Shown: positions 11-15,958 of the stretch, piece after piece
Layout: every line of letters starts with the position of its first letter
Position numbering within the stretch: the first letter of the stretch is position 1
Assembly: GCA_937127125.1 (NCBI GenBank)
Contig: CAKZLO010000005.1
Coordinates: 1 to 36,421 of the forward strand
Length of the DNA: 36,421 nt
Source of the DNA: an uncultured Ardenticatenia bacterium
GTDB lineage: Bacteria; Chloroflexota; Anaerolineae; 4572-78; NAK82
Reading direction: 5' to 3'
Notes under the pieces: model-generated
Database searches by the model: none
What the model saw: the letters and a program-made list of their open reading frames with translations, nothing else
Told to the model about the DNA's origin: nothing
Translations under genes and position numbers: made by a program

Positions 11-86
11 TGAAAATGATGGAGGAGTGCCACAGCGAGATCACGGCAGCAGCCCGTGGGGACGGTTAGGAGAGGGGGAGCGTTTG

Positions 87-308
87 ATGATTCCATTGCT
101 TCGCACAGACATCGTTCATCATAAGTGGCAGCACCTTGTGGACACGCTCAGGCGCGAGACAGGCCAGGACCTGATTGAATACGGGCTGCTCGCCGGGCTG
201 ATCGCGCTGGTGGCCGTTGCTGCCGTGCACCTGACGGGCGTCGAGATCGGCAACTGGTGGGCCTACATCGGCAATCGCGTCAGCGAGCTGTTGGGCGGCC
301 AGGGGTGA
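87..308 (+). CDS. flp: Flp-type pilin, first copy
   Basis: A 73-aa small pilin, the structural subunit of a Tad/Flp pilus. It has a basic leader of about 26 residues, then the Flp processing signature G/QDLIEY, with Glu5 and Tyr6 of the mature protein intact, and a hydrophobic helix (GLLAGLIALVAVAAV). Cleavage would be after the Gly, by the prepilin peptidase at 13796. I chose the ATG at 87 because AGGAGAGGGGGAG (68-80) is well placed before it; an upstream GTG at 27 would add 20 unconvincing residues and has its purine run too close. The mature part ends in a short tail with two Trp. A second pilin follows after a 191-base gap. Confidence 0.85.
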   Translation: MIPLLRTDIVHHKWQHLVDTLRRETGQDLIEYGLLAGLIALVAVAAVHLTGVEIGNWWAYIGNRVSELLGGQG

Positions 309-699: not shown

Positions 700-732
700 G
701 CGGGGTGACAGGAGTTCTTCCTGTCACCCCGC
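700..732 (+). promoter_or_regulatory. 14-bp perfect hairpin after the second pilin
   Basis: GCGGGGTGACAGGA (700-713) pairs perfectly with TCCTGTCACCCCGC (719-732) around a five-base loop. No T-run follows on the plus strand, so it is not a textbook intrinsic terminator. Its place between an abundant pilin and the pseudopilin gene suits a transcript-stabilising or attenuating element. Confidence 0.6.
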
Positions 733-782
733 TCGCCCGAGGTGGAATTAACGCTAACAAGTTACTGGTAGAAGGATCATCT

Positions 783-1205
783 GTGAAGCGTTGGGTGCAG
801 CGTGAATACACGCGCGGGCAGGACCTGATCGAGTTCGCGCTCATCCTGCCGCTGCTCCTGTTGCTGCTCACCGGCATCATGGAGTTCGGCCTGGCCATCA
901 TGGCCTACAACACAGTGGCCAACGCGGCGCGCGAGGGGGCGCGCTACGGCATCGTGCGCGTCGAGGCCGCCGACTGCGCCGACGATTATGCCGAGCACGC
1001 CGCCGCCATCGAGGACGCCGCGCGCCGCCTGACCGTCGGCCTGGATCAGGACCGGCTGGACATCGTGGTCTCCTGCCCGGCGGCGCGCACGCTGCAGGTG
1101 GAAGCCACTTACGTGCATCAGTTCATCACTGCTCCCGTCCTTATGGCGCTCGGCGGGGACGGGACGTTGCCCATGTACACCGTTTCGACCATGTATCTGG
1201 AGTGA
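783..1205 (+). CDS. tadE: TadE-like pseudopilin
   Basis: A 140-aa minor pilin-like protein. Residues 1-11 form a basic leader, followed by G/QDLIEF and a long hydrophobic helix (ALILPLLLLLLTGIMEFGLAI), then the TadE signature AYNTVANAAREGARYG. The rest is a soluble extracytoplasmic domain with two Cys in the middle, able to form a disulfide. TadE proteins are processed by the prepilin peptidase and are needed for Tad pilus assembly. I prefer the GTG at 783, preceded by GAAGGA (771-776), over an upstream GTG at 705 that would lie inside the hairpin and add 26 residues. A second TadE-like gene lies at 12180. Confidence 0.85.
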   Translation: MKRWVQREYTRGQDLIEFALILPLLLLLLTGIMEFGLAIMAYNTVANAAREGARYGIVRVEAADCADDYAEHAAAIEDAARRLTVGLDQDRLDIVVSCPAARTLQVEATYVHQFITAPVLMALGGDGTLPMYTVSTMYLE

Positions 1206-1218
1206 GGATGGAATTATT

Positions 1219-2097
1219 ATGACGCGAATGCGGGGTTGTGTCTGGTTGGCCGCCGGGCTGATCGTTGCCCTGCTGGCCGGCTTTGCTGCCTACGTGACGC
1301 TCAACCGCGCGGCGACGGTGCGCGGCGGCGGTGCCGCTGCCGGGCCGCAGGTCTCGGTGGTGGTGGCAGCGCGCGCCGTGGCGGTGCGCAGCCAGCTCAC
1401 CGCCCAGGACGTGCAGCTCAAGCAGCTGCCGGTGGAGCTGGTGCCGCAGGGCGCGCTGCGCGAGGTGAAACAGGCCGAAGGACGCATCACACTAGTGGAC
1501 CTCTACCCGGGCGAGATCCTGCTGGAACAGCGCCTGGTGAACCCCAACATGCTCACCGCTAACGGGCGCTACGCGCTCCTTATGGCGGCGGATCAGGTGT
1601 TGATGGCCTTTCCCGCTGAGGACCTGATGAGCCGTGTCGGTGTGCTCAAGCCGGGCGATCACGTGGACTTGCTCTTCTCGCTCAACTTCCCGGTCAACCG
1701 CAGCGTGGCAGCGCTGGGAGCTGAGGGGGGCGGCGAGGCGGGAGGCGGCGAGGAGGAACAGGCGACCTTCAACCTGCTACAGAACGTCACCATCGCCGCC
1801 ATCGTGGCGCAGCGTCCGGCAGCCACCACCCGGACGGTCGGGATCGGTGCCGCGGCCACCCCGACGCCGCAGCCGGGGGCCACGGCGCAGCCGGTGGCGC
1901 CGCAGACGCCGCCCGAGGCGCTGCTGCTCACCGTCAGCCCACAGGACGCGCTGCTGCTCAAGTATGCGCTGGACGCAGGCGGCAAGGTGGACATCGTGCT
2001 GCGCGCGCCCGGCGTCGAGCAGCCCTTCAGAGTGGAGCCGGTGGATGTCGATTACTTGATCAACAAGTATCGCATCCCGACGCAGATCGGGCGGTGA
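1219..2097 (+). CDS. cpaB: Pilus assembly protein CpaB/RcpC
   Basis: A 292-aa protein with an N-terminal membrane anchor (residues about 7-27), a SAF domain (about 45-105, with VVAARAVAVRSQLTAQDV and GEILLEQRLV), and the RcpC-type domain beginning near LMAFPAEDLMSRVGVLKPGDHVD. In Gram-negative Tad systems CpaB works on the outer side of the membrane together with the secretin. Here no secretin gene is present, so its role must be different or limited to the cell wall zone. A Thr/Pro/Ala/Gln-rich linker interrupts the C-terminal half. It starts 13 bases after tadE and shares its operon. A 169-base spacer with no recognisable gene separates it from the next gene. Confidence 0.85.
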   Translation: MTRMRGCVWLAAGLIVALLAGFAAYVTLNRAATVRGGGAAAGPQVSVVVAARAVAVRSQLTAQDVQLKQLPVELVPQGALREVKQAEGRITLVDLYPGEILLEQRLVNPNMLTANGRYALLMAADQVLMAFPAEDLMSRVGVLKPGDHVDLLFSLNFPVNRSVAALGAEGGGEAGGGEEEQATFNLLQNVTIAAIVAQRPAATTRTVGIGAAATPTPQPGATAQPVAPQTPPEALLLTVSPQDALLLKYALDAGGKVDIVLRAPGVEQPFRVEPVDVDYLINKYRIPTQIGR

Positions 2098-2266: not shown

Positions 2267-3445
2267 TTGGTAGACGGTGGAATGAGCGGGACAACGCGCC
2301 TGCTGGTGGTGGCGCGCGAACCAAGGCGCGCTGAAATCGAGCAGGCGTTGCTTGGTTGGGGTGGCGATTTGCGCGTTTTCTGGGTGGCGGAGCCGGACCT
2401 GGCGCCGGCGCGCGCCCAGGATGTGGTGCCGCACCTCATTCTGGTCGACGACGCGCCGGGCGCCGGCGATGCGGTGGCGTTGATTCGCCAGCTGACCACA
2501 CGGGTGCCCAGAGCAGCCGTCCTGGCCGTGGTGGACGAGGAGGCGATGGACCGCGCGCGCCAGGCAGTGTTGGCGGGCGCACGCGGGTTTGTCACCCGGC
2601 CGCTGCGCGCCGAGGATCTGGTGACCACCCTGCGCCAGGCGCTGGCGGGGACGCGCCCGCCGGTGGGGCCGCCGGAGCCGGAACGCGGGCGCGGCCATGT
2701 GCTGGTCTTCTGCTCGCCCAAGGGGGGCAGCGGACGCACCACGCTGGCACTCAACACCGCGGTCAGCCTGCACAAGACGACACAGCAGCCGGTGGTGCTG
2801 CTCGACGCCGACTACGCCGCGCCGGCGCTGGATGTGGCGCTCAACCTGCACACCGAGCGCAATCTGGCCGACCTGCTGCCGCGCGCCGCGCGCCTGGACG
2901 AGGATCTCCTCTCCAGCGTGCTGGCGACGCATACCTCGGGCGTGAAGGTGTTGCTGGCGCCGCCGCCCGGCGAGCTGCTGACGCCGGTGACGCCGGCGCA
3001 GATGCAGACCATCCTAACACTGCTGCGCCGCATGTTCCGCTGGGTGGTGGTGGATTTGGGCGTCGGCCTGGACGAGCTGGCGCTCAGCTTCGTCGAGAGC
3101 GCCGACCGCGCCATCGTCTCGGTGCTGCCCGAGCTGGTGGGGCTGCGCAACGCGGCGCTGCTGCTGGAGGAGCTGCGCGCGCACGGCATGCCGACGGAAC
3201 ACATCTGGGTGGTGCTCAACCGGTCCACCATGCGCGGCGGCGTGAGCAAGGGTGACATCGAGAAGCGCCTGCGGCTGGCGGTGAAGCACAGCGTGCCGGA
3301 CGACCAGCCGCTGGCGACTTACAGCATCAACCGCGGCGTGCCGCTGGTGCTGAGCCATCGCGGCAGCGCGGTGGCGCGCGCCATTGACCAGCTGGCGACG
3401 CAGCTCAGCCGCGAGCTGATAGACGGCAGCGGCCCGGCGCGGTGA
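2267..3445 (+). CDS. cpaE: TadZ/CpaE-like ATPase with receiver-like N-terminus
   Basis: A 392-aa protein of the CpaE/TadZ family, which positions the Tad machine in the cell. Residues about 10-125 look like a response-regulator fold (LILVDD near 57-62; FVTRPL near 108-113). From about 144 comes a MinD/ParA-type ATPase domain with a deviant Walker A, KGGSGRTT (152-159), then VVLLDADY and a Walker B-like VVVDLGVG. The TTG at 2267 is chosen because GGGAG (2253-2257) stands nine bases before it; the ATG at 2282 (MSGTTRLLV) is the alternative. A 307-base spacer follows before the next small gene. Confidence 0.85.
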   Translation: MVDGGMSGTTRLLVVAREPRRAEIEQALLGWGGDLRVFWVAEPDLAPARAQDVVPHLILVDDAPGAGDAVALIRQLTTRVPRAAVLAVVDEEAMDRARQAVLAGARGFVTRPLRAEDLVTTLRQALAGTRPPVGPPEPERGRGHVLVFCSPKGGSGRTTLALNTAVSLHKTTQQPVVLLDADYAAPALDVALNLHTERNLADLLPRAARLDEDLLSSVLATHTSGVKVLLAPPPGELLTPVTPAQMQTILTLLRRMFRWVVVDLGVGLDELALSFVESADRAIVSVLPELVGLRNAALLLEELRAHGMPTEHIWVVLNRSTMRGGVSKGDIEKRLRLAVKHSVPDDQPLATYSINRGVPLVLSHRGSAVARAIDQLATQLSRELIDGSGPAR

Positions 3446-4036: not shown

Positions 4037-4984
4037 ATGATAAGCGGACCCTTGTTGGTCAGTCTGCTGGTAGCGTTGGCTGTCTTCATTATCTTCGTGG
4101 GCATCTCGCGCAGCATGCGCCACGGTGACGTGGTGGAGGCGCGCCTGGACGAGTACGGCGCCAACTGGCGCGCGCCGGTCGGCGCGGACGGGGCGGAGCC
4201 AGCGCGCCCGGGCGCTAGGCTGGAGAACCTGCTGGCCGGCTTCGGCGCCGGCCGCCGCCTGGCCGAGGCGCTCACTGTGGCCGACCTGCCCATGACCGCC
4301 ACCGAGTTCACCCTGCTGATGTTGGGCGCCGGTGTCGGCGGCTTCCTGCTCGGCACGCTCTGGCGCGGGCTGGTCGTCGGTCTCTTGCTGGGCGGGCTAG
4401 GGGTGGTGGGGCCGCTCATCTACCTGCGCATCGCGCGCAGCCGCCGCCGACAGGCCATCACCATGCAGCTGCCCGAGGTGCTCACGCTGCTGGTGGGGGC
4501 GTTGCGCGCTGGCCACGGTGTGGCGCAGGCGATCGAGATGCTGGTCGAGCAGCTGCCGCCGCCCGCCTCGCGCGAGTTCGCCCGCGTGGCGCGCGCCATG
4601 GCGCTGGGCGTGCCGCTGCCGCGCGCGCTGGATGACATGGCGCGGCGCGTCGACACCGACGACGTGGCGCTGGTGGTCACCGCCATCACCGTCCAGTACG
4701 AGATGGGCGGCAACTTGGCGCAGACGCTCGAGACGATCGGCCAGACGGTGCGCGACCGCATCACTATGCACCGTCAGATTCGCGTTCTCACGGCGCACCA
4801 GCGCCTGACCGGTTACGTGTTGGCCGGCTGGCCGATCTTCCTGGGGGTCATGTTCTACCTGCAGAACCCGGCGCGGATGGCGCGCATGTTCCAGCCGGAT
4901 ATGATCTGGTTGCCTATCGCTGCTGGGCTGATGCAGCTGATCGGCTTTCTCATCATCCGTCGCATTGTGGATATTGAAGTATGA
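4037..4984 (+). CDS. tadB: Tad platform protein TadB
   Basis: A 315-aa inner-membrane platform protein of the type II secretion F (GspF) superfamily. An N-terminal helix (about 4-22) is followed by a cytoplasmic linker, two central helices (about 95-135), the T2SF domain (QLPEVLTLLVGALRAGHGVAQAIE through MGGNLAQTLETIGQTVRDR) and two C-terminal helices. TadB and TadC form the membrane base on which TadA acts to polymerise Flp. The start follows AGAGGAG. The stop overlaps the tadC start by four bases (ATGA), indicating translational coupling. Confidence 0.9.
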   Translation: MISGPLLVSLLVALAVFIIFVGISRSMRHGDVVEARLDEYGANWRAPVGADGAEPARPGARLENLLAGFGAGRRLAEALTVADLPMTATEFTLLMLGAGVGGFLLGTLWRGLVVGLLLGGLGVVGPLIYLRIARSRRRQAITMQLPEVLTLLVGALRAGHGVAQAIEMLVEQLPPPASREFARVARAMALGVPLPRALDDMARRVDTDDVALVVTAITVQYEMGGNLAQTLETIGQTVRDRITMHRQIRVLTAHQRLTGYVLAGWPIFLGVMFYLQNPARMARMFQPDMIWLPIAAGLMQLIGFLIIRRIVDIEV

Positions 4985-5964
4985 GCAGCGTTGATCTGGC
5001 CCGTTTGATTGAGAGCAGCGCCCTGTTGTGGTCGCCGGCGACCTTCGGTGCGCTGGTGGGACTGGCCGTGCTGCTGGTGTGGGTGGCGCTGGCGCCCTCG
5101 CCCGCGGCGCAGGCGGTGGACGAGCGGCTGGAGATCTACCGTGGGGGGCTGGACATCGCGGAAGAGGAAGAGATGCACCGTCCCTTCGCCGCGCGCGTGC
5201 TGGCGCCGCTGCTGCGCAAATTCCTGAGCGCGCTGGGCCGCCTGGCACCGCTGGGCAACCTGGCGCGCACGCAGCAGCTGCTCATCTACGCCGGCGAGCC
5301 CTTCGGCATGAGCGCGCTCGACTTCGCCGGGCTGCGCCTGCTGGCGCCGGTGGTGCTGGGCGGGCTGGCCTTCCTGCTGTTGCGCCGCCTGCCCCTCAAC
5401 ACGATGCTGCCCTACCTGTTGCTGGCCATCGGGCTGGGCTATTTCCTGCCCTACATGTGGCTGCGGCGGCGCGCGCGCCGCCGCCAGCACGAGATCGCGC
5501 GCGCCCTGCCCGACGCGCTGGATATGATGACCATCGGCGTCGAGGCCGGGCTAGGCTTCGAGTCGGCCATGCTTAAAGTGGGCGAGCGCTGGGACAACGC
5601 GCTGTCGCGGGAACTGCGCCGCGTCGTCGCCGAAATGCGCGTCGGCACGCCGCGCGACGAGGCGCTGCGCCGCATGGCCGAGCGCACCGGCGTCGAGGGC
5701 GTGCGCAGCTTTGTCACGGTGTTGATTCAGTCCACCCAGCTGGGCGTGAGCATCGCCCAGGTGCTGTACACGCAGGCCGACCAGGAGCGGCTGCGGCGGC
5801 GCCAGCGCGCCGAGGAGCTGGCGCGTCAGGCGGGTGGCAAGATGGTTTTCCCGCTGGTGATCTTCATTTTCCCGGCTTTATTCGCGGTTATCCTGGGTCC
5901 GATGGTACCGGGCATCCTGAACGCGATACAGAACATCCGGGCCAGCTTCCCCCGGATGCGTTAG
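4981..5964 (+). CDS. tadC: Tad platform protein TadC
   Basis: A 327-aa partner of TadB with the same T2SF domain. It has a helix near residues 18-38, a cytoplasmic region, paired helices around 112-160, then the domain core (ALPDALDMMTIGVEAGLGFESAMLKV ... LGVSIAQVLYTQADQERLRRRQRAEE) and a final pair of helices (MVFPLVIFIFPALFAVILGP). Length and architecture fit TadC well. It begins within the last codons of tadB and is followed after only 15 bases by the TPR/propeller gene, so the platform genes and that protein are one transcription unit. Confidence 0.9.
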   Translation: MSSVDLARLIESSALLWSPATFGALVGLAVLLVWVALAPSPAAQAVDERLEIYRGGLDIAEEEEMHRPFAARVLAPLLRKFLSALGRLAPLGNLARTQQLLIYAGEPFGMSALDFAGLRLLAPVVLGGLAFLLLRRLPLNTMLPYLLLAIGLGYFLPYMWLRRRARRRQHEIARALPDALDMMTIGVEAGLGFESAMLKVGERWDNALSRELRRVVAEMRVGTPRDEALRRMAERTGVEGVRSFVTVLIQSTQLGVSIAQVLYTQADQERLRRRQRAEELARQAGGKMVFPLVIFIFPALFAVILGPMVPGILNAIQNIRASFPRMR

Positions 5965-5979
5965 AGATGAGAGGTGTGC

Positions 5980-7866
5980 ATGGCGAGCGATTCGTGGCGT
6001 GAGGGCATCCTGAAGAACGATGCGCGCTTCCAAAAGGGGCTGGCGCACCTGCAGGCGGGTGAGTGGGAGGCGGCGATTCGCACGTTTGAGGAGCTGGCGC
6101 GCGAGTTCTCCGGCAGCCCCACGCTGGAGCGTCTGCTGGAAGAAGCGCGCTTCAAGGCGAATCTCGACGCCACGGCGCGCGTCAAGCCCAAGCGCTGGGC
6201 CTTCTCGCTGCGCGACCTGATGATTCGCGGGGTGGTGGCTGTGGTGCTGGTGCTGCTGGCGATCCAGGGGGTGCAGCTCTTCCGCGCGCGCGTCGCGCCG
6301 GCGCTGGCGCAAGTGCAGCTGCAGTGGCGGATCGCCAGCCTGCAGCGCGAGGCGGATGCGCGCCTGGAAGCGGGCGACCTGGACGGCGCAGAACAGCGCT
6401 ACCGCCAGATTCTGGCGCTGGTGCCCGATTCGCAGGCGGCCAAGGACGGGTTGGCGCACGTGGCCGAAGAACGCGAGGTGCTGGCGCTCTATCAGGAGGC
6501 GGTGCGTCTGCAAGAGGCAGGCGATTATGCTGCTGCGTTGTCGCTCTACACCGACATTCTGGTGCGGCGGCCGCGCTACCGCGACGTCAGCCTGCGTGTG
6601 GACGACATCCGGCGGCGCCAGCAGCGTGACGCGCTCTTCGCTGCGGCGGAGGAGGACTATCACGCGGGCCATCTGGCCGAGGCGGCCGCCAAATACGAGC
6701 AAATTCGCACGCTGGATGTCAACTTCCAGCGTGAGTTGATTCAGCAGCGCCTCTTTGAGCTGTACATGCGCATGGGGCGGGCGCTGGTGGAACGCGACCC
6801 GCCCGCCGCCGAGGTGATTCCCACCGCGCTGGAGCTCTTCACCAAGGCGCTCGAGCTGGAACCGCGCAACAGCGAAGCTGCATTGGAGCAGCAGCTGGCC
6901 AGCGCCTATGTGGACGGCATGGCCCAATTCCAGCAGGGCAACTGGGAGGCAGCCATTGCGCGCCTCAAGGCTGTCTTTGACCTGCGACCGGATTACCTGC
7001 GCGGCCTGGTAACCAACACGCTGTATGAAGCTTACATCCGCAGCGGCGACGTCTATCGCGACGCGGGGGACTATTACTTTGCCTACGAGCGCTACCGCGC
7101 CGCCGCGGCATTGCCGGTGGCGGACACAGCGCTGGCGCGCGGTCGCATGTTCAGCATCGAGCCGCTCCTGACGCCCACCGCCACGCCGACCAACACGCGC
7201 ACGCCCACGCCCACAGCGACCAGCACGCCCTATCCGACCCTCACGCCGATCCCGTCGGCCACGGCCACGGCGACGCCTGTGCCGCTCAGCGAGTTCCACA
7301 ACCAGATCGTCTTCTTCTCCGACAACGAGGAGCAGCCCGGGCTGTGGGTGATGGACCCCACCGGCGAGAATCGGCGCTATCTCGGCGACATCAAGGTGTA
7401 TCGCGACCAGTATCAACAGCTGTGGGAGCGCGAGTCGCTTTCACCGGACGGTCGTTACCGCGCCTACGTCGGCAAGGGCGACCGCGGCAACGCGCAGATT
7501 TTCATCGCCTTTCCGCCGGACCCCAAGTGGGGTGAGATGCCACCCAAGCAGCTCACCCTCTTCACCGGCATCAGCTACGACCCGGTGTGGTCGCCCGATG
7601 GCAGCCGTATCGCCTTTGTCAGCCAGGAGAACGGTAGCGACGACATCTGGGTGATCTACACCGACGGCAAGGGAGCGCGCGCCCTGACGCGCAACACGTG
7701 GGAGTGGGACAAACATCCGTCCTGGTCGCCGGACGGCACCCGCATCGTCTTCTGGTCCAATCGTACGGGCACCAAGAACATCTTCATCATGGACGCCGGC
7801 GGCGAGAACGTGCAGAATATTAGCAACACCCCTTGGGATGAGTATGATCCGATCTGGGTGAAATAG
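5980..7866 (+). CDS. TPR - transmembrane - TPR - beta-propeller protein
   Basis: A 628-aa protein placed between tadC and tadA. An N-terminal cytoplasmic TPR-like segment (about 10-60, FQKGLAHLQAGEWEAAIRTF) precedes one membrane helix (about 81-100). Outside come several TPR units (LEAGDLDGAEQRYRQIL, LQEAGDYAAALSLYTDIL, FQQGNWEAAIARLKAVF), then a Thr/Pro-rich linker near 392-430, then TolB/PD40-type propeller repeats (SYDPVWSPDGSRIAFVS, HPSWSPDGTRIVFWSN). The TPR part may take the place of TadD; the propeller could bind envelope or pilus partners. The ATG at 5980 is supported by AGAGG at 5970-5974. No enzymatic motif is visible. Domain calls are firm, the pilus role is inferred from position. 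Confidence 0.75.
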   Translation: MASDSWREGILKNDARFQKGLAHLQAGEWEAAIRTFEELAREFSGSPTLERLLEEARFKANLDATARVKPKRWAFSLRDLMIRGVVAVVLVLLAIQGVQLFRARVAPALAQVQLQWRIASLQREADARLEAGDLDGAEQRYRQILALVPDSQAAKDGLAHVAEEREVLALYQEAVRLQEAGDYAAALSLYTDILVRRPRYRDVSLRVDDIRRRQQRDALFAAAEEDYHAGHLAEAAAKYEQIRTLDVNFQRELIQQRLFELYMRMGRALVERDPPAAEVIPTALELFTKALELEPRNSEAALEQQLASAYVDGMAQFQQGNWEAAIARLKAVFDLRPDYLRGLVTNTLYEAYIRSGDVYRDAGDYYFAYERYRAAAALPVADTALARGRMFSIEPLLTPTATPTNTRTPTPTATSTPYPTLTPIPSATATATPVPLSEFHNQIVFFSDNEEQPGLWVMDPTGENRRYLGDIKVYRDQYQQLWERESLSPDGRYRAYVGKGDRGNAQIFIAFPPDPKWGEMPPKQLTLFTGISYDPVWSPDGSRIAFVSQENGSDDIWVIYTDGKGARALTRNTWEWDKHPSWSPDGTRIVFWSNRTGTKNIFIMDAGGENVQNISNTPWDEYDPIWVK

Positions 7867-7883: not shown

Positions 7884-9233
7884 ATGATCGGAACGGAACG
7901 CAATTCACGTGCGGCACCGCGCGCTGAGCCGACGCGCGGCGGATTTGGTCGCACTGATGGCCGCCAGTCCTACGATGCCATCCGCGACAAGGTACAGCAT
8001 CAGCTGCTGGCGCAGCTCAGTCCGAGCGCCGACCTGGGCAACGTCGAGGAGGTGCGGCGTGCGCTGGAACGCATTTTCAACGAGGTGATCACTGCCGAGC
8101 AGATTCCGCTGACGCGTGCTGAGCGCATCGAGACGTTCGAGCAGATCGTGGCCGACATTCTCGGCTACGGGCCCATCCAGCCCCTGTTGCTGGATGAGAC
8201 GATCACCGAAGTGCTGGTCAACGGCCCGAACCAGATCTACATCGAGCGCAACGGCATCCTTGAAGAGACCGATCTGCGCTTTCGCGACACGACCGAGCTG
8301 ATGCACGTGATCGACCGCATCGTCGCACCGCTGGGACGGCGCGTAGATGAGAGCAGCCCAATGGTGGATGCGCGCCTGCCGGATGGCTCGCGCGTCAACG
8401 TGATCATCCCGCCCCTGGCGTTGGACGGGCCGTGCATCAGCATCCGCAAGTTTGCCAAAGCGATTTTTTCCGCGGACGACCTCATCCGCGTGGGCACGCT
8501 CACACCCGAGATGATCGACCTGTTGCGCGCGTGTGTGCTGGCACGTCTGAACATCGTCATTTCCGGTGGCACCTCGACCGGCAAGACCACCTTGCTGAAC
8601 GTTCTCTCCAGCTTTCTGCCCGACAACGAGCGCATCATCACCATCGAGGATGCCGCCGAGTTGCAGCTGCACCAGCGCCACGTGGTACGGCTGGAGGCGC
8701 GTCCGCCTAACGTGGAGGGCAAGGGGGAGATCACCATCCGCCAACTGGTCATCAACGCGCTGCGCATGCGCCCGGATCGCATCGTCGTGGGTGAGGTGCG
8801 CGGCGGCGAGGCGCTCGACATGCTGCAGGCGATGAATACTGGCCACGACGGTTCGCTGACCACGGCGCACTCGAACAGCCCGCGCGACACGCTGCACCGC
8901 GTTGAGACGATGGTGCTGATGGCGGGCATGGACCTGCCGCTGCGCGCTATCCGCGAGCAGATCGCCTCTGCCTTCGATGTGATCGTCCACTTGGAACGCC
9001 TGGTGGATGGCACGCGCAAGGTGGTCAAGATCTGTGAGGTGCAGGGTATGGAGGGGGATGTCATCGTGTTGCAGGACATCTTCCAATACGTGCAGACTGG
9101 CATCCAAAACGGCCGCGTGCAGGGCTATTTCACCGCCACCGGCGTCCGCCCCAGCTTCATGACCAAGCTGGAGACGCATGGCTTCCACTTGCCGGCAAGC
9201 ATCTTCGCGCCGATGCGCAAACCGGCGCGCTGA
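7884..9233 (+). CDS. tadA: Tad motor ATPase TadA/CpaF
   Basis: A 449-aa secretion ATPase of the VirB11/PulE superfamily that powers Flp pilus assembly at the cytoplasmic face of the membrane. The N-terminal domain is followed by Walker A GGTSTGKT (228-235), an Asp box (RIITIEDAAEL), Walker B region (RPDRIVVGEVRGGEALDML) and the His box (GHDGSLTTAHSNSPRDTL). All catalytic elements are intact. Length is at the usual size for CpaF. It follows the TPR/propeller gene by 17 bases with a GAGGAGGAA upstream and is followed 13 bases later by the DnaB-like gene. Confidence 0.93.
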   Translation: MIGTERNSRAAPRAEPTRGGFGRTDGRQSYDAIRDKVQHQLLAQLSPSADLGNVEEVRRALERIFNEVITAEQIPLTRAERIETFEQIVADILGYGPIQPLLLDETITEVLVNGPNQIYIERNGILEETDLRFRDTTELMHVIDRIVAPLGRRVDESSPMVDARLPDGSRVNVIIPPLALDGPCISIRKFAKAIFSADDLIRVGTLTPEMIDLLRACVLARLNIVISGGTSTGKTTLLNVLSSFLPDNERIITIEDAAELQLHQRHVVRLEARPPNVEGKGEITIRQLVINALRMRPDRIVVGEVRGGEALDMLQAMNTGHDGSLTTAHSNSPRDTLHRVETMVLMAGMDLPLRAIREQIASAFDVIVHLERLVDGTRKVVKICEVQGMEGDVIVLQDIFQYVQTGIQNGRVQGYFTATGVRPSFMTKLETHGFHLPASIFAPMRKPAR

Positions 9234-9246
9234 TAGGGGAGATGGA

Positions 9247-10308
9247 ATGACAGAGTCGGCGATGGTGTCGGGAGAGTTGACGCAGCAGTGGGAGCTGGAA
9301 GCGACCGGACCGGCCACGCTGTCTCAGGTGATGGACGAGATCGAGGAGCAGACCGCGCGAGGTCATACGGCGCGTTTTGTGCCGCTGCCCACCGGCTTCG
9401 ACCCACTCGACGACGTGCTCAACGGTGGCCTGCGCCCGGGCGAACTGCTGGTCATCGGCGGTCCGATAGGCGTGGGCAAGACCATTTGGGGACTGCAGGT
9501 GGCGCGCAACGTGGTCTATAACGACCCGGACGCAATGGCGATGTATGTGTGCTACGAGCACGACCGCACGCATCTGCTGCTGCGCCTCCTTTGCCTGGAG
9601 AGTGCCGAGCAGGGCTACGATGACGAGGCACTTACATTGCGCGACCTAGCGCGCGTCGCCGCGGACGCGACGGGTGGCAACGCCGGCCTGATTGCGCACC
9701 TGCGTCATATGGGCCGGTATGCGCGGTTGATGCGTGCGGTGGACAGCTATGCCGGGCGATTGGTGCTGGCGAAGGCAAGCGGCGACCACACCACGCTGGA
9801 GCAGGTGCGCGAATGGGTGGAGGAGGTGGCGGCAAAACAGGCTGGCCGCCTGCTGCTGGTGGTGGATTACCTGCAGAAGGTGCCGGTGCACTGGGAGAAG
9901 CTGCAACAGGAGGAAGAGACCACCACCTATTTGACCCATGGCCTGAAAGAGATGGCTATGGCGCTGGGCATCCGCATCGTGGCGATTGCTGCGGCGGATC
10001 GTCCCGGCCTCAAAGCGCGCCGCATGCGCCTGGCCGACTTGCGCGGTAGCTCGGCGGTGCAGTACGAAGCCGATGTGGGGATGATTCTCAACAACAAGTA
10101 TGCCATCATCAGCCGTGAGCATCTGGTCTACAACCTGGCGCAGGCCGAGGCGATGCGCAATTATGTAGTGCTGAGCGTGGAGAAGAACCGCGCCGGGCGC
10201 AATGCGATCGACATGGAGTTTATGCTGGATGCTTCGCACTTCCGCATTGTGCCGCGCGGCGGCTTTGTACGCGAACGCCTGGTGGACGAAAAGGTGATAC
10301 TGGGTTGA
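9247..10308 (+). CDS. DnaB-type RecA-fold ATPase in the pilus locus
   Basis: A 353-aa protein matching only the C-terminal ATPase half of replicative helicase DnaB. Motifs in order: TGFDPLDDVLNGGLRPGELLVIGG (split here only by description) beginning near 49, Walker A GPIGVGKT (72-79), the position of the catalytic Glu at YEHD (E104), Walker B LLLVVDYLQ (202-210), then DLRGSSAVQYEADVGMIL and VEKNRAGRNAIDMEF, which correspond to the DnaB sensor and arginine-finger region. The primase-binding N-terminal domain is absent; instead there are about 45 unrelated residues. ATG 9247 has GGGGAG just upstream. It lies in the operon between tadA and a NERD-like membrane protein. It may be a RecA-type accessory ATPase rather than a helicase; its job is unknown. 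Confidence 0.75.
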   Translation: MTESAMVSGELTQQWELEATGPATLSQVMDEIEEQTARGHTARFVPLPTGFDPLDDVLNGGLRPGELLVIGGPIGVGKTIWGLQVARNVVYNDPDAMAMYVCYEHDRTHLLLRLLCLESAEQGYDDEALTLRDLARVAADATGGNAGLIAHLRHMGRYARLMRAVDSYAGRLVLAKASGDHTTLEQVREWVEEVAAKQAGRLLLVVDYLQKVPVHWEKLQQEEETTTYLTHGLKEMAMALGIRIVAIAAADRPGLKARRMRLADLRGSSAVQYEADVGMILNNKYAIISREHLVYNLAQAEAMRNYVVLSVEKNRAGRNAIDMEFMLDASHFRIVPRGGFVRERLVDEKVILG

Positions 10309-10339: not shown

Positions 10340-12163
10340 ATGGCCGAGTTGCTGCTGGCCGGCAAAGGATGGATCGAACCAGACTCGCTGGGTGCTTTGC
10401 TGCGCGAAGCGCTCTCGGACGAATACCTGGTGGTGGATCATCCGGTCGTGTACGGTTGCCCGCTGGATGCCGTCGTGGTGGGGCCGCGGGGCATCTTCAT
10501 CCTGCACGAGTTAGTGGCCCCCGACGAGGGCAGCTCTAAGATTCTCAGGCGAGTGCAGCGCGCCGGGAAAGCGGTGCGCGCTTTTCTGAAGGATGAGTTT
10601 CCCACGCTGCGGGTGCCCGTGCGCCAGCTGGTGTGCCAGGCCGTCACACCGGTCGCGGTGGCAGCCGCTCAGGGGCCGGAGGTGGAATGGGTGAGCAGGC
10701 AGAACGTCGGATCCGCTATTGATACTGCTCCGCTGCCGGCAGATGAACCGCTGGCCGACATCGAGACGCGTGAGGCGGTGGCGGTCGCGTTCCGCGATCG
10801 GCGCCTGGCAGCGAACCAGCGCGCCACGCAGCCGTTTGTCTTTCGTTCCAGCAGCTTGCTGGGCAGTGGCACTACCGTGTGGACGATCCGCGACGCCATC
10901 CGCCATATGGACCGTCATCCCGAGGACGGCATCTTTCATTTACGCAACGGGACGTTGGCGCGTTGGCTGTCCGAGCAGGGAGCTGAACACCTGGCTGCAC
11001 TGGCGCGCCAGGTGATCAACCGGCGGGACACCGATATGCGTATGGCGCTGGAGAGCTTCCTAATCGGTACCGGCCTGGTGGCGCGTCCACGCCTGCAGGT
11101 GCGTCCGTCGCGCCTGAACCTGGGTTGCGTGCTCTCCGGCGAGAAGTGCAGTATGCGCTTCCGCGTGCAGAAGGGCCCCGGCCGGGGATATCTCTTCGGC
11201 AGCGTGAGCACCAATGCGCCCTGGCTGCGCGTTGAGCCGCGAACGTTCGCCGGCGAGCCGTTGGATGCCATCGTGACGGTGGATTCTGAGACGCTACCCA
11301 TCAGTTCGTCGCCGTGGGTAGGCGAGATTGAGATCGATTCGAGCGCCTCGGCGCAGCCGCTGCGCGTGCCGGTGTACGTGCGCGTGATGGGCATGCCCTC
11401 GCCCTTGCAGCGTTACCTGCTACGGCCGCTGGCGGGCGCGTTAGTAGGCGGCGCGTGGGGTGTCATTTTGGGTTGGTTGCTGGCGCGTTACGGCCTGCCC
11501 GCCGCCAACTGGACGTCGCAGGCGGCGCACCTCGGTCTGGCGCAGGGTGCTTGGCCGCTGGGCGGTGGGCTGTTTGGGGTGGTGTTGGGGTTGCTGCACG
11601 GGCTGGGACAGTCAGTTGTGCTGCCGACCAGCTGGGCGTTGGGGCGCTGGCTGCTGCGCGCGGTGGCATGGGGCGCTGCGCTGGCGCTGGTGTTCATGGC
11701 GGCTTACTGGTCGTGGAGATGGTTTGAACAGGGGGAGATGGCTGTTTTGGCGCCGCCGGCTGTGCTGGTGTTGGTGCTGTTGGCGCTCCTGCTGGCGCTG
11801 TTGCCTGCGACGCTGGCGGAGGTCGCTTCTGGCGGGCAACGCGAGGCGAGGCAGCTCGTCCGTGGAGAGCGCCTTGCTGCCCTGCCATTGCGCATGGCGC
11901 TGATCGGCGTGGGGCTGGCGTTGATCGTGGGGGCTGGAGCCCATTTGGCGGCGTCGGCATTGGAAGGCTGGGACACCTCGCAAGCGGCCGCGACCGCACA
12001 GCGCTGGCTGAGCGACAGCCTGAGTCAGCTGGAGGCGACGTTAAACCATCTGGTGGACCAGGCTTATCTGGACTACTACGATCAACGTGCCCCGGTGGAG
12101 GCAGCGCCCGAGACGCTGCCGACGGCGACACCAGCCGCCGGCGTGGGGACCGCGACGCCTTGA
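10340..12163 (+). CDS. Membrane protein with degenerate NERD domain and beta-sandwich domain
   Basis: A 607-aa protein in three parts. Residues about 15-130 resemble the nuclease-related NERD fold (EYLVVDHPVVYG, LDAVVVGPRGIFILHEL): the first catalytic Asp (D43) is present, but the usual E-x-K is H-E-L (56-58), so nuclease activity is doubtful. A middle region (about 175-250) holds a helical segment (IRHMDRHPEDGIFHLRNGTLARWL) of unknown function. Residues about 255-345 look like an Ig-like beta-sandwich (LQVRPSRLNLGCVLSGEKCSMRFRV read as pieces; WLRVEPRTF). Then come about five membrane helices from 355 on, and a Thr/Pro-rich tail. It follows the DnaB-like gene by 31 bases and is followed by tadE. 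Function unknown. Confidence 0.6.
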   Translation: MAELLLAGKGWIEPDSLGALLREALSDEYLVVDHPVVYGCPLDAVVVGPRGIFILHELVAPDEGSSKILRRVQRAGKAVRAFLKDEFPTLRVPVRQLVCQAVTPVAVAAAQGPEVEWVSRQNVGSAIDTAPLPADEPLADIETREAVAVAFRDRRLAANQRATQPFVFRSSSLLGSGTTVWTIRDAIRHMDRHPEDGIFHLRNGTLARWLSEQGAEHLAALARQVINRRDTDMRMALESFLIGTGLVARPRLQVRPSRLNLGCVLSGEKCSMRFRVQKGPGRGYLFGSVSTNAPWLRVEPRTFAGEPLDAIVTVDSETLPISSSPWVGEIEIDSSASAQPLRVPVYVRVMGMPSPLQRYLLRPLAGALVGGAWGVILGWLLARYGLPAANWTSQAAHLGLAQGAWPLGGGLFGVVLGLLHGLGQSVVLPTSWALGRWLLRAVAWGAALALVFMAAYWSWRWFEQGEMAVLAPPAVLVLVLLALLLALLPATLAEVASGGQREARQLVRGERLAALPLRMALIGVGLALIVGAGAHLAASALEGWDTSQAAATAQRWLSDSLSQLEATLNHLVDQAYLDYYDQRAPVEAAPETLPTATPAAGVGTATP

Positions 12164-12179: not shown

Positions 12180-12602
12180 ATGGGACGTCAGTTGAAGTGG
12201 GTCACGCGTGGGCAGCGCGGCGCCAACCTGATCGAAATGGCTTTGGTGACCACACTGCTCATATTGCTGTTTGGTGGCATCGTCGACCTGGGGCGCGCCT
12301 TTCACAGCTATATCGTGATCACCAATGCGGCCCGCGAGGGTGCGCGCATGGGGTCGCACTTCCCGGATCGGGAGGATTTGATCGTCGCTGCTGCCATCCA
12401 GGAGGCAGCTACAAGCGGAGTGGAGCTGCTGCCAGGCGATGTTGACGTGGATTTCCCTGCGGGCGCAGATACAGCAGGCAACCCCATCCGCGTGACGGTG
12501 GTGCACGAGGTGCCTATGTTCCTGGGGGGCATCTTCGGCTACGGCACCTCACTCACGCTGACAGGCTATGCCGAAATGGTCATCTTTGGACGGGATTTGT
12601 AG
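12180..12602 (+). CDS. tadE: TadE-like pseudopilin, second copy
   Basis: A 140-aa minor pilin-like protein. The leader (MGRQLKWVTRGQRG) is followed by ANLIEMALVTTLLILLFGGIVDLGRAF and then the TadE signature ITNAAREGARMG. Cleavage after the Gly leaves Glu at mature position 5, as in the pilins. The remaining domain contains the common TadE C-terminal beta-strand pattern and no Cys. GGAGGAGGGG at 12165-12174 fixes the ATG at 12180; an upstream frame start at 12087 lies inside the preceding gene. It precedes TadG, the normal partner order in Tad loci. Confidence 0.85.
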   Translation: MGRQLKWVTRGQRGANLIEMALVTTLLILLFGGIVDLGRAFHSYIVITNAAREGARMGSHFPDREDLIVAAAIQEAATSGVELLPGDVDVDFPAGADTAGNPIRVTVVHEVPMFLGGIFGYGTSLTLTGYAEMVIFGRDL

Positions 12603-12674
12603 GGGATTGAGGCAGTTCGCTTCCGGTGCGGAAGGCACAGCGTGCGGCGCGCAGACGCCGACAGGAGGTATCCG

Positions 12675-13760
12675 ATGAACATACGACGTGTGATGGAACA
12701 GCAAGGCCAGACGCTCATCATCGTGGCCGTCGCGCTGACGGTGTTGTTGATGTTTGTGGCGCTGGCGATCGACGTGGGCAACATGTATCAGGTGCGCCGC
12801 CAAATGCAGAACGCGGCTGACGCCGGCGCGCTGGCCGGTGCGCGCGAACTGTGCTTTGGCGATCCGTCCCAGGCTGAGGCGCGCGCCATCGAATATGCCC
12901 GAATGAATGGCGCGGAGGACGTCCAGGTGACTTTCACCAACGGTGGCTGGACAGTAGAGGTCGTGGCCGGCGAGTCAGCCGATATGTACGTGGCCGATAT
13001 TATGGGCATCCCCACAGTGGATGTGCCGGCCGAGGCGGCAGCGACCTGTGGCGAGGCGGTCAGCGCGTGTGGGCTGTGGCCAATTGCCTTCAAGTTGAGT
13101 ACCTGGCAATATCTCCTTGACAACGGTTACGGTTGCGGCGATCGTTTCTTTGTATGGACCGGTGACAACCTCAACGACAGTCCGCGCTGTTGGGATCCCA
13201 ACACCATTTACGACTGCGACGTTGATGACGACGGCAAGATCGACTTCGTGGATATTGTCAGCCGGGGCTGGCTGGACTTCTCCGACATAACCGATGTCAC
13301 ACTCTATCCGGATGCTTGCGCTAAATCAGGTTGTGGCGAGTCTGAGCTGGCCTGCTGGATTGAGGATGACTCGCCGGCTAAGATCATAGTCCCATCGTGC
13401 ATTCCAGGTTTACAGGGCGTCAAAGCGGGTGTGAAAGATGAGGTCAACTCGCGCATCAACGATCTCGTGGGCGTACCGCTCTTCGAATCCAGAGGTTGCA
13501 GCGGCACCAGCTCCTGTCCTGGCGGCGACACGTATTATGTCACGGGATTCGGCTGTATCCGCGTGGAAGGTTGGATACATAACTTCGAGCTGCCCCAGAA
13601 ACCAGATCCGGTGACGGGCAAGATAAAGCAGCCGCCGTGGAAGGGGCATGTCATCGCCGCTTCCATCAATTGTCGTCCGGGCTGTACCACCGATTGCGGC
13701 GAGACTGGGGGCACTCCGCCCGAGATGGGTGGCATACGCGCAGTCAGTCTGGTCAAGTGA
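12675..13760 (+). CDS. tadG: TadG-like protein, cysteine-rich with an EF-hand-like loop
   Basis: A 361-aa protein with the TadG-type N-terminus: QQGQTLIIVAVALTVLLMFVALAIDVGNMYQVRRQMQNAADAGALAGA in pieces marks a membrane helix (about 12-33) and the conserved AADAGALAGA motif. The outside domain has 16 Cys (for example 125, 132, 154, 172, 181, 215, 220), unusually many, suggesting disulfides. Residues 182-193 read DVDDDGKIDFVD, a perfect EF-hand/dockerin calcium loop pattern (D1, D3, D5, G6, I8, D9, D12). AGGAGGT at 12663-12669 fixes the start. TadG is thought to bridge the pilus machine and the envelope; calcium dependence here is inference. Confidence 0.8.
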   Translation: MNIRRVMEQQGQTLIIVAVALTVLLMFVALAIDVGNMYQVRRQMQNAADAGALAGARELCFGDPSQAEARAIEYARMNGAEDVQVTFTNGGWTVEVVAGESADMYVADIMGIPTVDVPAEAAATCGEAVSACGLWPIAFKLSTWQYLLDNGYGCGDRFFVWTGDNLNDSPRCWDPNTIYDCDVDDDGKIDFVDIVSRGWLDFSDITDVTLYPDACAKSGCGESELACWIEDDSPAKIIVPSCIPGLQGVKAGVKDEVNSRINDLVGVPLFESRGCSGTSSCPGGDTYYVTGFGCIRVEGWIHNFELPQKPDPVTGKIKQPPWKGHVIAASINCRPGCTTDCGETGGTPPEMGGIRAVSLVK

Positions 13761-13795
13761 GTTTCGTGTGAGTGTTGCCAGGAGTTCGCAGTCGC

Positions 13796-14425
13796 ATGGA
13801 CGTTATCCTCCTGGGTGGTTTGATCGGCGCCGTGCTGGGCGCGCTCGTCTGGCGCGGCGCTGTTTTCTTCATTGCCCGCTTTGAGCCGGGACGTGTCGCC
13901 GATGGGCTGGTCTCGGCGCCGGCAGCAGTCACCATCGCGGGCATGGCGCTGTGGGCTGCCTTCGTCGGCTGGCAGGCAGCAGGCCTACGACAGGCAGTGG
14001 CTGCGCTGGTGATCGTTGCCCTGCTGGCGACGATCACGCTGGTGGACTTGCACGTGCACCAGATACCCAACGCCCTGGTGCTGGTGCTGCTGGGCTGGGC
14101 GCTCGTGCAGGCGTTCGTCTTTGGGCAGCCGGCGCCGCTGGCGGCCGGGTTGGGGTTGCTAGTCGGCGGGGGGCTTTTCTTCCTGATGGCGGTGGCCGGG
14201 CGCGGTGCCATGGGCGCCGGCGACGTCAAGCTGGCGGCTGCGCTGGGTGCCGTGCTGGGCTGGCCAGCAGTGTTGCCAGCGTTGTTATATGGCATCATCG
14301 CCGGTGGCTTCGCGGCGTTGCTGCTGTTGTTGCTGCGCCGCGCCAGCCGCAAGAGTGCTTTCGCCTACGGCCCCTATCTGGCGCTGGGTGCGCTGATCAT
14401 GCTGGTGCGCGCGCTGCTGGCGTAG
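13796..14425 (+). CDS. tadV: Prepilin peptidase (A24 family, TadV/CpaA-like)
   Basis: A 209-aa integral membrane aspartic protease that cuts the leader from Flp and TadE/TadG-type prepilins. About six membrane helices are visible. The two catalytic Asp are D84 in LVDLHVHQIPN and D143 in MGAGDVKLAAALG, the GxGD motif. There is no N-terminal methylation domain with Cys pairs, so it is the short peptidase type. I chose the ATG at 13796 with AGGAG at 13780-13784; a GTG at 13772 is possible. The gene closes the run of pilus genes and would act on every G/QDLIE-type protein of this locus. Confidence 0.9.
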   Translation: MDVILLGGLIGAVLGALVWRGAVFFIARFEPGRVADGLVSAPAAVTIAGMALWAAFVGWQAAGLRQAVAALVIVALLATITLVDLHVHQIPNALVLVLLGWALVQAFVFGQPAPLAAGLGLLVGGGLFFLMAVAGRGAMGAGDVKLAAALGAVLGWPAVLPALLYGIIAGGFAALLLLLLRRASRKSAFAYGPYLALGALIMLVRALLA

Positions 14426-14983: not shown

Positions 14984-15958
14984 ATGAAAAGGGCCTCGCG
15001 GAGTGTGCTGATCCTGTTGCTGCTGGTATCTCTCGCTGTGGCTGTGGCGAGCTGCACACGGCAGAAACCATCGATTCGTGCACTGGAGGCGGCCGGGGAG
15101 GGAGGCACGCCGACTGCCACGTTGGTGCTGGTGGCACCGACGATGCCGATCGGGAAGGATGTGTTGCCCACCCTGACGCCCACCTTGCGCGCCACTGTCA
15201 TTGCCGTACCCCCTACGGCCACACCGGAAGGAGGTTTTGCAGAGCTGATTGCCCCAACCTCCACGCCGACGCCACCTGCTCCTTCTGCGGAGGTCACCAC
15301 ACCGGCCGTCGGCGTCGCGGAAGCTACCCCGCTTCCCACACCGGTGCCCGTCCTGACGCCACAGCTGGAGACTTTCCCGTTGCAGCCGATCGTGGTGAGT
15401 TCGCCCACGCCGATGCCGCCTTCCACATTGCCCACGAGCATCCCTGCGGCACCTTCTGGCACCACCTACACGGTGCGCTGGGGTGACACCCTTTTTTCCA
15501 TTGCAGCTCAGTTCGGGGTGACGGTGGAAGTGATCAAGAGCGCCAACGGACTCAGCAGTGACACCATCCTGGTGGGACAACAGCTGGTCATTCCGCTGCC
15601 ATCCTCGCCATCTTCGCCGGCGCCAGGGAGCGGTGCCACCACCGTTCACATCGTGCAGCCCGGCGAGACCCTTTTCCGCATCGCATTGCGCTACAACACC
15701 ACAGTAGAGGCAATCGCACAGGCCAACAACATCTCCAACCCCTGGTATATTTATCCCGGCCAGCAGCTGACCGTGCCGCTTGGCCCAACGAGCAACGTGC
15801 CACCCTCCCCGCGTCGCACTTATGTGGTGCAGCCGGGTGATACGCTGTACGCCATCGCATTACGCTTCAACACCACCGTCGAGGCACTCATGGTGCTCAA
15901 CAACATGTCCAACGCCAACATGCTGCATCCGGGCCAGGTACTGCAGCTGCCGGAGTAG
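14984..15958 (+). CDS. LysM-domain lipoprotein
   Basis: A 324-aa exported lipoprotein that should bind peptidoglycan. The signal peptide ends in the lipobox V-A-S-C with Cys24 as the lipid-modified residue. Residues about 40-155 are a Thr/Pro-rich spacer (PTATLVLVAPT, PTSTPTPPAP). Three LysM repeats follow: YTVRWGDTLFSIAAQFGVTV (near 164), VHIVQPGETLFRIALRYNTT (near 222) and YVVQPGDTLYAIALRFNTTV (near 281). There is no catalytic domain, so it is a wall-binding or scaffold protein. It is monocistronic, with its own promoter and intrinsic terminator. The lipobox followed directly by a wall-binding region suits an outer-face anchored protein. Confidence 0.88.
   Translation: MKRASRSVLILLLLVSLAVAVASCTRQKPSIRALEAAGEGGTPTATLVLVAPTMPIGKDVLPTLTPTLRATVIAVPPTATPEGGFAELIAPTSTPTPPAPSAEVTTPAVGVAEATPLPTPVPVLTPQLETFPLQPIVVSSPTPMPPSTLPTSIPAAPSGTTYTVRWGDTLFSIAAQFGVTVEVIKSANGLSSDTILVGQQLVIPLPSSPSSPAPGSGATTVHIVQPGETLFRIALRYNTTVEAIAQANNISNPWYIYPGQQLTVPLGPTSNVPPSPRRTYVVQPGDTLYAIALRFNTTVEALMVLNNMSNANMLHPGQVLQLPE

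Follow-up and report, generated by a model that had tools for sequence, protein, structure and literature searches.

The gene at 10340–12163 of the window, by which we mean the whole 36,421-nucleotide stretch analysed here, encodes a NERD-like protein that is probably not a DNA-cutting enzyme but an undescribed add-on of a pilus motor. We favour, with moderate confidence, a role as an inner-membrane accessory of one Anaerolineae Tad subtype, in which a dead nuclease domain would be used for binding. The domains, dead site, topology signal, restriction to Tad loci, conservation and purifying selection in one close pair are computed results, whereas its physical membership in the Tad machine and its binding partners are what we infer.

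The gene is real and conserved. Its open reading frame, on the forward strand and 607 residues long, agrees with that described in the first-pass annotation, and it lies between a DnaB-like gene that ends 31 nt upstream and a TadE gene that begins 16 nt downstream. Purifying selection on the gene is seen in one close pair, with a dN/dS of 0.24 for the NERD part and 0.075 for the helical and sandwich part; in this pair the NERD part is still under constraint, but more weakly so than the domains that follow it. The full window protein searched alone against Pfam and NCBIfam gave no match, and a sequence search of the PDB with the family profile returned chance matches only. The Tad locus of the window is complete, its genes following each other in the order of Table 1, with a DUF192 gene after the prepilin peptidase. 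Shortly past the operon, at 14984–15955, several LysM domains are encoded, possibly with a function in cell-wall binding. The genome also contains a second Tad locus, of the common type (L133, contig C76, 4143–14848), which has a different gene order and does not contain the TPR-propeller, DnaB-like and NERD-like genes.

Table 1. Features of the Tad locus in the window and domains of the NERD-like protein
Feature	Position	Strand	Details
Flp pilin candidate	27..308	+	PF04964 E 1.8e-4, 21.7 bits, below cut-off 32.2
First TadE-like pseudopilin	705..1205	+	
CpaB/RcpC (SAF)	1219..2097	+	
TadZ (receiver-like + MinD/ParA-type ATPase)	2267..3445	+	
TadB (T2SSF)	4037..4984	+	
TadC (T2SSF)	4981..5964	+	
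TPR + TolB-like beta-propeller protein	5974..7866	+	between TadC and TadA
TadA	7884..9233	+	subtype clade carrying accessory genes
DnaB-like RecA-fold ATPase without DnaB_N	9247..10308	+	PF03796 8e-23; likely start 9247, longer ORF from 9178
NERD-like / helical / ASH-like / 5 TM gene	10340..12163	+	607 aa; homologues in 22/396 Anaerolineae genomes
Degenerate NERD (PD-(D/E)XK) domain, aa 12–135	10373..10744	+	profile, hhalign, AF2 model, structural neighbours
Conserved helical domain, aa ~141–246	10760..11077	+	motifs PFVFRS, HMDRHPEDGIFHLRNGTLARWL, LESFLIGTGLV; conservation, model
ASH/PapD/MSP-type beta-sandwich, aa 247–352	11078..11395	+	model, fold search
Five transmembrane helices, aa ~362–540	11423..11959	+	family-averaged hydropathy; helices in model
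Predicted extracytoplasmic helix, YLxYYDRRAP motif and Pro/Thr-rich tail, aa 541–607	11960..12160	+	conservation, hydropathy
TadE-like pseudopilin	12180..12602	+	
TadG-like protein	12642..13760	+	
Prepilin peptidase (A24, TadV)	13772..14425	+	

A catalytically dead NERD domain makes up the first ~135 residues, an identification that rests on the relatives and not on the window copy alone. The window copy scores 11.8–12.7 bits against PF08378, under the curated cut-off of 22.1; the same profile matches the N-terminal region in 16 of 19 relatives (best 1.9e-10), and seven relatives scored singly all exceed the cut-off, with up to 36.9 bits. When hhalign set the family profile against a profile of nine ordinary Anaerolineae NERDs, the probability was 98.3% (E 1.2e-14), and the D and E-x-K regions of the two groups fell in register. 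Hits to the sandwich domain took up the initial fold search, so the N-terminus was modelled and compared on its own. The AF2 model of residues 1–165 (pLDDT 74, pTM 0.73) shows the order a-b-b-b-a-b and the PD-(D/E)XK core fold, and the top rows of its VIA fold search are mostly PD-(D/E)XK nucleases with Z up to 9.4, the structural neighbours being NucS/EndoMS, Can2, Card1, McrC, XisH, Nt.BspD6I and other PD-(D/E)XK enzymes; our AF2 models are of medium confidence, built from input alignments of 4–5 rows (the window and related-locus sequences). The earlier reading of this region as NERD-like is borne out by the profile matches of the relatives, by hhalign and by the model, and the outcome named as refuting it, a fold search showing no likeness to NERD, did not arise. 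In the G555 copy (L067 8986–10875; also L031) an unrelated hydrophobic N-terminus stands in place of the NERD strands and the rest is retained, either through real NERD loss or as an artefact of a metagenome-assembled genome; its Tad locus is divergent and includes a response regulator.

As the first-pass annotation had described, the window copy retains D43, within PLDAVVVGP (D43 at 10466–10468), and has H56-E57-L58 (10505–10513) at the place of E-x-K. In a joint alignment with ordinary NERDs of the same class, the helix Glu is found in 0/19 Tad-family copies, the Asp in 14/19, the Glu of E-x-K in 0/19 and the Lys in 4/19, whereas each of the four is present in 9/9 ordinary NERDs. The complete set E...D...E-x-K occurs in none of the 19 copies, His is the commonest residue at the E-x-K Glu position, and the DW pair that follows E-x-K is frequently retained and helps to reveal the homology. 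Loss of the site in every Tad-family copy, against its retention in every ordinary NERD, indicates that nuclease loss is family-wide and not a quirk of the window copy, which supports the dead nuclease proposed earlier; as judged from these residues, the domain is catalytically dead across the family. The ~135 N-terminal residues are homologous to PF08378 NERD proteins, with a PD-(D/E)XK-like fold, and unlike those proteins the family lacks the helix-1 Glu and the E-x-K Glu and is fused to a helical-ASH part and five membrane helices. SmdA of Staphylococcus aureus is a membrane protein with a NERD domain in which several of the residues best conserved among NERDs are missing, and it interacts with other proteins (PMC9040797). 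Compared via that paper only, SmdA resembles the window protein in being membrane-bound and in having a divergent NERD domain without key residues, and differs from it in its length of 302 aa, its single TM helix N-terminal to the NERD domain, its role in cell division and its lack of a helical-ASH part (PMC9040797).

Between the NERD domain and the sandwich lies a helical domain (~141–246) that was absent from the earlier description and is the best-conserved part of the protein. The beta-sandwich that had been placed at residues 255–345 is confirmed with wider limits, 247–352. It has an Ig-like sandwich fold, and the VIA fold search aligned it with 7n6g_4C, a ciliary ASH-type Ig domain, at Z 13.3 over 99 residues and 1.8 A. 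The fold is the same as that of the ASH/PapD-like/MSP Ig domains (HYDIN, CEP192, VAP-A), at 17% identity; no Pfam profile, ASH/HYDIN included, matched the window protein up to E 5, and the kinase and multi-ASH relatives of the module do match such profiles. The helical and sandwich module follows the kinase domain in Chloroflexota Ser/Thr (Hanks) kinases, aligning over residues ~156–382, and the sandwich part also matches DnaJ proteins and multi-ASH proteins; the kinases and the DnaJ-ASH proteins have a kinase or J domain where the window protein has its NERD domain. As these are cytosolic contexts, the recurrence argues for a cytosolic interaction module. The combination of NERD, sandwich and membrane block, regarded at first pass as unfamiliar, is real but less odd than it appeared, with the helical-sandwich module common to kinases and the sandwich to DnaJ. 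Among Anaerolineae we also observed DnaJ proteins that carry a sandwich at the C-terminus (DUF5717_N/BACON-like; L009, L012, L016), as well as kinases or other proteins with long arrays of ASH/HYDIN-type Ig domains (L008, L010, L011, L014, L015).

Could this module serve as a signalling input? The helical-ASH part would then receive a kinase or chaperone network and switch the pilus on or off, with the NERD domain as a second docking site. The occurrence of the same helical and sandwich module behind the kinase domain of Hanks kinases is consistent with such a role, and the module is the best-conserved part of the NERD-like protein. However, no conspicuous kinase gene adjoins it in the loci read, where unlabelled neighbours are not all annotated, and the module could be no more than an adaptor in common use. 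We regard the signalling explanation as rather unlikely.

The five membrane helices noted previously are recovered as five membrane segments in the family-averaged hydropathy. Basic loops precede TM1 and separate TM2 from TM3 and TM4 from TM5, and the positive-inside rule predicts an N-in/C-out topology. The YLxYYDRRAP motif of the C-terminal region is conserved in the family. The full-length AF2 model is weak in the membrane part, and we have therefore left the membrane fold uninterpreted.

How widespread is the protein? In our sample of mostly metagenome-assembled genomes, a profile search found the gene in 22 of 396 Anaerolineae genomes, and in 21 of these 22, from 19 genera, it stands beside Tad genes, so that the Tad setting reported for the window is conserved. 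Usually TadA (or the DnaB-like gene) is on one side and TadE on the other; G568 has two Tad loci with the gene (L058, L059). The G049 copy (L023 14969–16852) is split in two ORFs beside an FG-GAP protein, has no visible Tad context, and is a pseudogene or an assembly error. TadA itself is present in 266 of the 396 genomes. In the TadA tree, the TadA proteins of the loci compared here for the NERD-like and DnaB-like genes group in a single clade (support 100/98, 26 rows), separate from the TadA that is common in Anaerolineae. The exception is G555, whose long-branched TadA is placed among the common type. The NERD-like gene occurs in 19 of the 27 genomes that have a subtype-clade TadA; if it were ancestral, several losses would be needed on this tree, and the sister loci that lack it seem complete. 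The suggestion that the protein is a component of Tad machines generally does not hold, considering the 22 genomes against 266 with TadA, the single Anaerolineae TadA clade and the absence from the common locus. Distances between the NERD-like proteins correlate with those of TadA (rho 0.71) and of the TPR-propeller protein (rho 0.81), with none of 500 permutations reaching as high, although these correlations are confounded by species phylogeny and do not separate co-function from shared ancestry. The TPR-propeller gene marks the whole Tad subtype, including loci without the DnaB-like and NERD-like genes, and its distances follow TadA best (rho 0.86). Phylum-wide draws, which are samples only, contained no full-length copy outside Anaerolineae, a plasmid match was not found, and none of the papers searched connects NERD with Tad pili.

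The DnaB-like neighbour has a RecA-like DnaB_C core and no DnaB_N domain was found in it. Against full-length DnaB equivalogs it scores 79–81 bits, with cut-offs of 385–499, and both features set it apart from the replicative helicase DnaB. Walker A, DYLQK, E127 and R338 (numbering from 9178) are invariant in 14 sequences of its family. A second DnaB-like family, at about 350–385 bits to the profile, occurs in roughly 34 Anaerolineae genomes and stands alone, outside Tad loci, in the loci read (L115–L122). The Tad-linked DnaB-like gene is found in 22 of 396 genomes, in 17 of them together with the NERD-like gene. The NERD-like gene occurs without it in G054, G570, G589 and the divergent G555, and in G721, a contig fragment; the DnaB-like gene occurs without the NERD-like gene in G726, G690 and G701, and also in G633 and G677, near contig ends; the Tad loci of G585, G640 and G717 have neither. 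Since each gene is found without the other in complete Tad loci, we reject an obligate pair: of the two-gene module that had been proposed, the sharing in 17 of 22 genomes stands and the obligate link does not (G054, G570 and G589 on one side, G726 and G690 on the other). Both genes belong, as optional components, to a single Tad subtype, in which they tend to occur together but can also occur apart.

This separability also bears on DNA handling, in which the dead NERD domain would bind DNA and move or anchor it with the DnaB-like ATPase during Tad uptake or secretion. NERD and DnaB are both DNA-processing folds, and their joint occurrence in 17 of 22 genomes would suit such a partnership. But the catalytic positions are eroded, the two genes are apart in several loci, and ComEC, the only competence marker tested, is not discriminating, as 42 of 45 genomes have it, whether they carry the NERD-like gene or not; nothing found here shows the DNA handling at the pilus base that was raised at first pass, and we consider it improbable. 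That a general membrane protein sits in the operon by chance and acts elsewhere, as the optional distribution and the orphan broken copy in G049 might suggest, is very improbable, given that 21 of 22 genomes, across 19 genera, have the gene in a Tad setting and that it co-diverges with TadA.

For a Tad accessory, then, speak the place in Tad loci, the single TadA clade, the co-divergence, the dead site, the dN/dS values, the cytosolic contexts of the sandwich and the SmdA precedent, which together suggest this role; against it stand the optional nature of the gene, the G049 copy, split and outside visible Tad context, and the phylogenetic confounding of the correlation. What would such an accessory do? 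The dead NERD domain, the helical domain and the ASH-like sandwich would form a cytoplasmic binding part. Its most likely role is to dock a component of the pilus base at the membrane platform, be it the TadA ring, TadZ or, in loci that have it, the DnaB-like ATPase. With its five membrane helices the protein would be located at this platform, and the conserved extracytoplasmic tail could touch the pseudopilins encoded alongside.

In the archaellum, the RecA/KaiC-fold ATPase FlaH/ArlH stands beside the TadA-type ATPase FlaI/ArlI (PMC4858521). In both cases the gene of a RecA/KaiC-fold ATPase adjoins one for a TadA-type ATPase within a locus for a type IV filament; in contrast to FlaH/ArlH, the window neighbour is closest to DnaB, has retained the catalytic Glu position of DnaB and is an optional gene. 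FlaH next to FlaI may, by analogy only, be the closest functional model for the DnaB-like neighbour. It is conceivable, though we think it unlikely, that the motor base of this Tad subtype has a second layer, in which a DnaB-derived ring ATPase would stack onto TadA, much as FlaH/ArlH stacks onto FlaI, and be held at the membrane by the pseudo-nuclease receptor. If true, this layer would be the bacterial equivalent, evolved independently, of the regulator ring of the archaellum.

In conclusion, Tad pili occur widely, and the inventory of their parts derives from a few model bacteria. The Anaerolineae Tad subtype described here is defined by three extra proteins, the TPR-propeller protein, the DnaB-like ATPase and the NERD-ASH-5TM protein, and a nuclease fold has apparently been reused as a binding module inside its pilus operon, which offers testable candidates for holding or regulating the ATPases at the pilus base.
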